The notes beneath the pieces are model-generated. The model was not told where the DNA came from. It ran no database searches and was given only the letters and a program-made list of their open reading frames with translations. The translations under genes and the position numbers were made by a program. From an uncultured Veillonellaceae bacterium (GTDB lineage: Bacteria > Bacillota > Negativicutes > Veillonellales > Negativicoccaceae), in assembly GCA_945876385.1 (NCBI GenBank), contig CAMCNU010000002.1, positions 1 through 64,000 of the forward strand: a DNA stretch of 64,000 nucleotides, read 5' to 3'. Positions 16,667-19,114 of the stretch are shown here, one piece after another (the stretch's first letter is position 1; every line of letters begins with the position of its first letter).

Positions 16667-16775
16667 CTTCACGTCCCCTTCCCGCTCCCCGACCGCGACC
16701 GGGGAATCCTATTTATTGTACCCGCCTGCCCTGTAAATGTCAAAATCGCGCCCGTCGGGCGGGCATACCCGCCGC

Positions 16776-16804
16776 TTGCCACACCCGGCCCGGTTGCGTA
16801 TACT
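16776..16804 (+). promoter_or_regulatory. Promoter of the small zinc-ribbon gene
   Basis: TTGCCA (16776-16781) and TATACT (16799-16804), spacer 17 nt, just upstream of an AGGAGG ribosome site. Confidence 0.65.
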
Positions 16805-16823
16805 GGTAGCAGGAGGAACGCTC

Positions 16824-17006
16824 ATGAACCATATCCTGATTTGTCCGTATTGCAAAAAAGAACTCGCGCTCTTTCAAAGCCAGATCGAGCGCCGCCGCGG
16901 CCACATCAAGTGCATCGGTTGCGGCACCCGCATTCCCTACGATCTCGACCGTCGTACTCGGCCGCGCCGCATCGCCGTGCCGCCGGAGGGGCCGCGCGAG
17001 CCGTGA
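16824..17006 (+). CDS. Small zinc-ribbon protein
   Basis: 60 residues, starting MNHILICPYCKKELALF. Two Cys pairs, CPYC (residues 7-10) and CIGC (31-34), spaced as in a minimal zinc ribbon, followed by a basic, Arg/Pro-rich tail (RRTRPRRIAVPPEGP). A strong AGGAGG site, a consensus promoter and a bidirectional terminator make it a genuine stand-alone gene, divergent from murI and convergent with the DUF1232 gene. Nucleic-acid binding is plausible from charge, not shown. Confidence 0.7.
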   Translation: MNHILICPYCKKELALFQSQIERRRGHIKCIGCGTRIPYDLDRRTRPRRIAVPPEGPREP

Positions 17007-17052: not shown

Positions 17053-17388
17053 TCAGAACGGGAAAAACCGTTTGGCCGCCAGTACATGTTCCGGTAGAAT
17101 ATACGCACGCGCCAGACGCATCGCCGCCGCAATCACCGCCGTATCATCAAGCCAGCCGAGGCCGAGAATGACATCGGGCAGGACATCGACGGGGGTCAAG
17201 AGATAGCCGATGGCGCCGAGCAGCGCGACCCGTACATAGACAGGCGTGCGCGCATCCCGCAGGCAGAAGAACATCGTCAATCCTTCCCGCAAAAACGACA
17301 TCCGCCGTCCCACCGTACCGAAGTAGCGAAACATTTTTTTCGCGGAGTACAGGCGTACCAAGTATCGCATCATCTTTCCGATGGCCAC
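17053..17388 (-). CDS. DUF1232 (YkvA-like) membrane protein
   Basis: 111 residues with a GTG start preceded by GGAGG at good spacing. The core YVRVALLGAIGYLLTPVDVLPD, then GWLDDTAVIAAAMRLA, is the DUF1232 signature (the LxPxDxxPD and DD motifs). These small membrane-associated proteins have no settled function. The gene begins 12 nt after the His-rich/DUF697 gene, so the two probably form one operon. Confidence 0.85.
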   Translation of the reverse strand: MAIGKMMRYLVRLYSAKKMFRYFGTVGRRMSFLREGLTMFFCLRDARTPVYVRVALLGAIGYLLTPVDVLPDVILGLGWLDDTAVIAAAMRLARAYILPEHVLAAKRFFPF

Positions 17389-17400
17389 GTGTCAACCTCC

Positions 17401-19020
17401 TCAGGATTTCAGTTTCTTCGCGACGTCCTGCGCCACGGATTCGGCTTTGTCTTTGGCGTCACTGACCGCATCCGCGACATCGTCGGCGATGTCTTCGGCT
17501 TTGTCTTTGGCATCGCTGACCGCGTCCGCGACATCATCGGCGACATCTTCCGCCTTGTCTTTCGCCGCGGCCGCCGCATCCTTGACGTCGGCTTTGACAT
17601 CGTCCGCCGCCTCGCCCATCGCGTCTTCGACCGCCCGCGCATCGCGCTTGAATTCTTCCGCTTTTTCCTGCACGCGTTCCTTGAATTGCGCATGGTGCTC
17701 CTGCGCCTGTTCTTTCAAGTCCGCGGCTTTTTCTTTGACTTGTTCTTTCAGGTCGGCCGCTTTTTCCTTGGCCTGGTCTTTCCAGTCTTCGCTGTCGTCT
17801 TTGATTTCATCGACTTTGCGATCCAAGCGTTCTTTCCAATCCTCCGCCGTTTCCTGTGCCTGTTCTTTGGCTTTGGCGGCGCGTTCTTTCGCTTCTTCGG
17901 CGACTTCGCTGACTTTTTCTTTCCACTCCGCCGCCAATTCTTCCGTCGTTTCTTTCGTCACTTCGAGGACCCCCTTCGCCAATGCTTTTTTATCGTCAAT
18001 CGCTGCCTGCGATACACCGAGCATCAAGAGCAAATCGGTGAACGCTTTGTCCGCCACGCGCGCCGCTTTGCTGATACCGCGGCCGGCGGTTTCTTTCATT
18101 TCTTCTTTCGCTTCGGCGGCAAATTGCTTCGTTTCATCGCCGAGCGGTTCGTCTTTTTTGACATTGTCCGCCAACTCTTCGACTTTGGCTTCGCCTTCCG
18201 CCTTGAGGTCGGAGAATTTTTCTACATAGGGCTGCATGTCGACCGGCATGCCGTCTTTGACCCACGACTGGGCGACACGCCCCAATCCGTACGTGACGGA
18301 AATCGCGACCGGTACCGACAACCCCGGCAACGGAATCATCGCCAGGGCGACTTTGCCGACGACCCGCGCGCCGAACGCGCCGAGGAATCCCATAATCGCC
18401 CGATCGGAGAGCTTGACACCGTAAATCTTCGCCAAACGACCGATCATGTAGACTTCGTTGGCCATCAGCGCAATCCCGCTCACCAGCGGCGTCAACGCCA
18501 AGACACCCGCACGTGCCGCCCCCCAGCGGATGAGGTTTTCGGCCGCTTCGTCTTCTTCGTTGACCGGATTGACGCCATCAGCATGTGTGCGCCGTGTGCC
18601 GTCACTGTCCGCACGCCGATGCGGGCAACGTCCGCCCGGTTTCGGATCGTCGTGCGTACGCCGGGTGCCGTCGCTGTCTTCGCGCCGATGCGGGCAACGT
18701 CCGCCCGTTTCTGCCGCCGCTTCGTGCGCCGCATGACCGCCGCAATGACCGTGGCCGCCGTGTGCCTCGCCGTCGCCGTGCCGACCGCAGCAATGGCCGT
18801 GCCCGTGATGCGCGCCTTCGCCGTCGCCGTGATGACCGCCGCAATGGCCGTGCCCGTGATGACCTTCCTCACCGTCGCCGTGATGACCGCAACCGTGATG
18901 ATGATGCCCCGTACCGCCTTCCCGGCGATGCGGGCAGCGCCCTTCCCGTGTCTGTGTATCCGTTTCTCCCGTGGCCACGACTTCTTCCGAAATCATGTCT
19001 TCATGTTCGTGTTGTTTCAT
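17401..19020 (-). CDS. His/Cys-rich protein with DUF697-like domain and LEA-like repeat tail
   Basis: 539 residues with three very different parts. Residues 1-150: acidic start, then three tandem His/Gly/Cys repeats (HHGDGEEGHHGHGHC type, residues 39-96) and three copies of GRCPHRR (27-33, 107-113, 130-136). Residues about 160-255: helical hydrophobic domain (GVLALTPLVSGIALMANEVY, then RLAKIYGVKLSDRAIMGFLG) matching the DUF697/YcjF type. Residues about 260-539: charged amphipathic repeats rich in Ala/Lys/Glu/Asp (KDKAEDVADDVADAVSDA) like LEA or apolipoprotein helices. The first part looks metal-binding, the middle membrane-associated, the tail surface-binding or protective. AAAGGAG precedes the ATG. 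Start, frame and terminator with the DUF1232 gene downstream look sound; the combination is one I do not recognise. Confidence 0.8.
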   Translation of the reverse strand: MKQHEHEDMISEEVVATGETDTQTREGRCPHRREGGTGHHHHGCGHHGDGEEGHHGHGHCGGHHGDGEGAHHGHGHCCGRHGDGEAHGGHGHCGGHAAHEAAAETGGRCPHRREDSDGTRRTHDDPKPGGRCPHRRADSDGTRRTHADGVNPVNEEDEAAENLIRWGAARAGVLALTPLVSGIALMANEVYMIGRLAKIYGVKLSDRAIMGFLGAFGARVVGKVALAMIPLPGLSVPVAISVTYGLGRVAQSWVKDGMPVDMQPYVEKFSDLKAEGEAKVEELADNVKKDEPLGDETKQFAAEAKEEMKETAGRGISKAARVADKAFTDLLLMLGVSQAAIDDKKALAKGVLEVTKETTEELAAEWKEKVSEVAEEAKERAAKAKEQAQETAEDWKERLDRKVDEIKDDSEDWKDQAKEKAADLKEQVKEKAADLKEQAQEHHAQFKERVQEKAEEFKRDARAVEDAMGEAADDVKADVKDAAAAAKDKAEDVADDVADAVSDAKDKAEDIADDVADAVSDAKDKAESVAQDVAKKLKS

Positions 19021-19071: not shown

Positions 19072-19114
19072 ATTATATCATATTTTTCGATATCCTGTCG
19101 CCTGTCAGGCGACA
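19072..19114 (-). promoter_or_regulatory. Promoter with palindromic operator-like site
   Basis: TATAAT on the minus strand at 19072-19077. The -35 position is covered by a perfect inverted repeat TGTCGCCTGTCAGGCGACA (19096-19114: 9-bp arms, 1-nt centre). Placement over -35 suggests a repressor or metal-responsive regulator site; a hairpin in DNA is an alternative. Confidence 0.5.

Follow-up and report, generated by a model that had tools for sequence, protein, structure and literature searches.

A species-specific His/Cys-rich N-terminus on a conserved, uncharacterised DUF697-related protein of Negativicutes encoded beside a DUF1232 gene

The gene at 17401-19020 on the minus strand of the window (the whole 64-kb stretch of DNA analysed here) encodes a 539-residue protein in which a His/Cys-rich N-terminus confined to this species precedes a DUF697-related core and a long amphipathic tail, and the protein is a lineage-specific variant of a conserved, uncharacterised family. 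The reading frame is genuine, with an ATG start, 539 codons and an AAAGGAG-type ribosome site upstream; it sits within a series of minus-strand genes and is present as a single copy in the genome. All three parts of the layout proposed in the initial annotation were found. Of more interest than the metal-related part is the conserved family itself, together with DUF1232 as partner and the putatively exchangeable lipid-type modules.

The core (residues 155-278; 18187-18558, minus strand) is homologous to DUF697 as judged from alignment, and AlphaFold2 gives a confident five-helix model for it, with pLDDT mostly 83-97, falling to 69 from helix 3 to helix 4. Among 25 aligned proteins, core identity is 37-61% with 31 invariant columns; a LMANEVYMI-type stretch (residues 185-193) is invariant within the core, as is, in the same 25 homologues, a PLGDE motif at residues 292-296 (18133-18147, minus strand). 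A profile search detected the core in 119 of 380 Negativicutes genomes. The protein itself misses the DUF697 (PF05128) gathering score, with 19.9 against 27.7 bits, while homologues pass it (L035, 34.1 bits; L054, 36.1 bits), and the core is therefore called DUF697-related. Moreover, hhalign aligned it with the second DUF697 of GTPase proteins over 104 columns, with a probability of 96.6% and an E of 5.7e-10. The DUF697 relation suggested earlier is therefore retained, although the domain spans about 124 residues and not about 95. No solved structure matched the core convincingly, either in a sequence search or in Foldseek and VIA searches with the AlphaFold2 model; the candidate 9wjw_F, with a VIA Z of 7.3, was rejected because this value does not exceed the stated noise level of helical bundles. 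With a best 19-residue mean of 1.98, the hydrophobicity of the core is only moderate, and charged residues lie inside its helices, so the core may be a soluble bundle. Two other arrangements of the core were observed: a Sporomusaceae protein (L054:4986-6695) is a single chain in which the core comes before, and a second DUF697 after, a GTPase domain, and many Acidaminococcaceae (f5) genomes have a second copy, a paralogue of about 165-200 residues that is core-only and ends soon after PLGDE (e.g. L135, L136).

As the initial annotation had noted, a DUF1232 gene follows closely: its GTG start lies 12 nt after the stop of the core gene, and it encodes 111 residues (17053-17388, minus strand) that pass the DUF1232 (PF06803) gathering score of 23 with 43.6 bits. 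DUF1232 comes after the core gene in all genomes of the window's own family (f1, 4/4) and of two others (f3, 16/16; f4, 26/26), and in only 1 of 11 in f2; in the distant Negativicutes family G127, DUF1232 overlaps the end of the core gene. Because the pair is kept across families including this distant one, it is old and probably functional. The Veillonellales gene order, which is conserved over several families, is TauE, SDR, core gene, DUF1232, thioesterase, MurI (glutamate racemase), membrane protein and CofE-like, where neighbours other than DUF1232 and the thioesterase were named by eye. In addition, a small zinc-ribbon-like frame with CPYC..CxGC (16737-17006, plus strand) runs antisense between the thioesterase and DUF1232 genes; its likely start is the internal ATG of MNHILICPYCKKEL..., and Negativicoccus massiliensis has a homologue at the corresponding position (L032:6895-7155).

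Upstream of the core gene, a promoter-like site with -35 GCGACA and a -10 TATAAT preceded by TG (19072-19101, minus strand) was recognised by consensus match only, and orthologues show a comparable TATAAT-type box in their upstream regions. The palindrome earlier placed on the -35 is real: TGTCGCCTGTCAGGCGACA, a perfect 19-nt palindrome at 19096-19114, covers the -35 of this site and is a possible operator. No second perfect copy occurs in the genome, and the palindrome is not conserved, being absent upstream of three sister-genome orthologues; 8 palindromes of its class occur within the window. A palindrome regulon in its own genome was rejected, as the other sites have 3 mismatches and 3 sites were found against 2 for the reversed control.

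The C-terminal tail (residues 340-539; 17404-18003, minus strand) is of the apolipoprotein/YtxH-like amphipathic helix type, as it is in Veillonellales at large, with an 11/18-residue periodicity. Its hydrophobic periodicity of 3.6-3.67 lies above all 500 shuffles, identity peaks fall at lags 11, 18 and 22, and AlphaFold2 predicts, at moderate confidence, a helix about 170 residues long. The YtxH (PF12732) cut-off of 37.5 is passed by the whole protein (37.8) and by the tail alone (41.7), scores of a low-complexity helix for which homology is uncertain. The YtxH layout is a small protein with an N-terminal transmembrane segment and then repeats; here the repeats follow a core of about 124 residues in a protein of 539. 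Apolipoprotein A1/A4/E (PF01442) remains below its cut-off, with 44.5-55 bits against 90 (E 1e-14 for the tail alone), and LEA_4 (PF02987) is not listed for this protein, its relatives reaching 18.5-21.4 against 51.1. A sequence search of solved structures returned mainly apolipoproteins, on the tail. The proposed LEA/apolipoprotein-like character of the charged amphipathic tail is thus supported, although its length comes to about 200-240 residues and not about 280. Sister lineages encode an extra amphipathic YtxH/CsbD-like frame of 78-89 residues between the core gene and DUF1232 (L031:6034-6303, L032:6195-6500 region); it occurs in three sister genomes and is absent from the window. Fusion of such a small frame onto the tail was considered, for which composition alone is no proof.

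In Acidaminococcaceae homologues, the core and PLGDE are kept, while the tail is replaced by an alpha/beta C-terminal domain of about 185 residues (e.g. L049:5541-6095). This domain has no Pfam family above cut-off. Searched with VIA, its model gave YceB as the leading match (Z 6.3, rmsd 4.1, 126 residues), with P47, SPLUNC1, BPIFA1 and LBP at 4.5-4.9 and also OrfX; no Foldseek match had an E below 0.001, and hhalign against YceB gave only 5.8%. These best neighbours over the domain, with modest Z values, all belong to one superfamily, the tubular lipid-binding (TULIP) proteins. The first bacterial families of it to be described were YceB, P47 and OrfX2 (PMC6791001), and a TULIP-like assignment of the YceB/DUF1439 type may be taken as a lead from the model, at fold level only. 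If it holds, one and the same core is followed by either of two unrelated lipid-type modules, which would point to lipids or membrane surfaces as its field of action.

The His/Cys/Gly-rich, low-complexity N-terminal extension (residues 1-150; 18571-19020, minus strand) accounts for 29 of the protein's 31 His and for all 8 of its Cys; the remaining 389 residues have no Cys and 2 His, both in the tail. The three HHGDGE..HHGHGHC-type repeats and three GRCPHRR motifs described earlier are present. The repeats (HxGDGE..HxGHGHC with a 51-nt unit; residues 39-98; 18727-18906, minus strand) comprise HHGDGE at residues 46 and 63 and HHGHGHC at 54 and 71, and their third copy has the variants RHGDGE at 80 and HGGHGHC at 87. 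Exact GRCPHRR copies lie on the same strand at residues 27-33 (18922-18942), 107-113 (18682-18702) and 130-136 (18613-18633). The repetition is seen in the DNA as well, as 51 nt x 2.5 and as two 65-nt copies 69 nt apart. In a class search of 380 genomes, the N-terminus matched only itself (0/379 others), and no other fetched homologue frame has more than 5 His plus Cys before the core. A plasmid search gave no match, and a sequence search of solved structures gave nothing credible. Matches in a phylum sample of 398 genomes (best E 2.5e-4) were weak, several with stops, and were discarded as chance compositional matches.

Since this N-terminus is private to one species, a metal role does not belong to the family as a whole, and the metal function first proposed falls as a family trait. 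Within this species, metal binding is plausible, given a composition like that of metal tails and the mostly silent change between repeat copies. The segment would very likely bind metal in vitro, while buffering of metal in the living cell is doubtful. No metal-related gene adjoins the core gene. The genome has no HypB above cut-off and no SlyD-like FKBP, apart from one FKBP_C match in a 481-residue frame that is probably trigger factor, and these HypB and FKBP searches revealed no nickel-enzyme context.

An alternative for the N-terminus is neutral expansion, in which a disordered, fast-changing linker refills with tandem repeats that happen to be rich in His and Cys here and have no metal role. 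Homologue N-termini agree with it in that they are short and acidic, almost missing, or filled at the same place with unrelated repeats (AVAERPAA, GLPAEKEA, acidic Ala/Glu stretches), and so does the privacy of the segment, found in 1 of 380 genomes. Yet the copies of the CPHRR unit (GGRCPHRRxDSDGTRRTH) have changed at about half of their silent sites while the peptide was kept (pS 0.53-0.56, pN 0.05-0.13, p 1e-4 to 7e-4), a test that is biased for GRCPHRR because this motif was picked by peptide identity; the longer CPHRR unit and the His unit, both found at the DNA level, show the silent-change trend too, more weakly, with a pN/pS of about 0.26 (p 0.05) for the His-unit copies. Moreover, the concentration of His and Cys in the N-terminus is far from a general composition effect. 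Because the copies differ mostly silently, these patterns suggest that the N-terminus of this species is under selection and may be functional, and neutral expansion appears rather unlikely.

Two further alternatives concern the body of the protein. The core might be what is left of a DUF697 GTPase, its membrane domain, which after loss of the GTPase acts with one in trans; the Sporomusaceae fusion described above and a protein with a GTPase ahead of a core-like domain (L134) speak for such a history, but the genome has no other DUF697 protein and the gene neighbourhoods inspected showed no GTPase gene. This origin is rather improbable. Similarly improbable is a cytosolic LEA/YtxH-type protectant whose charged helix protects proteins or membranes under stress, with the core as a mere anchor or oligomerisation unit. 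The YtxH match above cut-off, the LEA_4 match below cut-off in a close relative and the small YtxH/CsbD-like frames of sister lineages are in its favour; however, conservation is far higher in the core than in the tail, and because Acidaminococcaceae and other families drop the tail and keep the core, the tail is unlikely to represent the ancestral function. Nothing ties the protein to desiccation or oxygen, and the dedicated stress role first proposed finds no support.

The preferred reading is a membrane-surface or lipid-handling protein. The protein is the orthologue, in Veillonellales, of an uncharacterised family of Negativicutes. Its compact helical core would sit in or on the cytoplasmic membrane, and its long C-terminal helix would, like apolipoprotein and YtxH helices, rest lengthwise on a membrane or lipid surface, while the small DUF1232 membrane protein encoded alongside would work with it. 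In this species, the disordered, fast-evolving N-terminus may have become a His/Cys/Asp-rich tail that, much as the metal tail does in SlyD, chelates a divalent metal (Ni, Zn, Cu or Co). A membrane- or lipid-surface role is the somewhat better bet, and the whole explanation, with a SlyD-tail-like metal-buffering extension added in this lineage, has about an even chance. A wider and quite speculative proposal is a Negativicutes-specific lipid-handling platform that builds or maintains the double-membrane envelope, combining a DUF697-type membrane core, DUF1232 and exchangeable, unrelated lipid-binding modules (an apolipoprotein-like helix or a TULIP-like domain), here coupled to metal status through the His/Cys tail.

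Near murI, diderm Firmicutes thus keep DUF697 and DUF1232 as a conserved pair of genes, and the exchange of a helix for a putative TULIP-like domain behind one core would be a concrete hint at a core function on lipids or membrane surfaces. In the open library searched, DUF697 is named in 6 papers and DUF1232 in 3, never in a title or abstract, and the main text of the Veillonella envelope papers examined mentions neither them nor YtxH. Veillonella parvula has transposon tools (PMC10665443) and probably belongs to f4, whose members carry the pair, so the pair should be testable in this species.

With regard to known systems, the N-terminus is, judged from its sequence, a metal-binding-type module and a neat case of its gain in one lineage, this species only. 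It resembles the SlyD metal tail and the His-rich segments of HypB and Hpn in being an unstructured segment rich in His, Cys, Asp and Glu that is attached to a domain of another kind; the SlyD of E. coli, for instance, binds up to 7 Ni(II) (PMC7055735). A SlyD-type metallochaperone combines an FKBP domain with a His-rich tail, whereas the present segment is N-terminal, shows no sequence match, and belongs to a protein with no FKBP match. The core is homologous to the DUF697 of GTPase-DUF697 proteins and of E. coli YcjF, but unlike the DUF697 GTPase proteins, the present protein lacks a GTPase, starts with a private N-terminus and ends in an amphipathic tail. As in YtxH, LEA_4 and apolipoprotein A1/A4/E helices, this tail is a long charged amphipathic helix with 11/18-residue periodicity, whereas here it is joined to a DUF697-type core.
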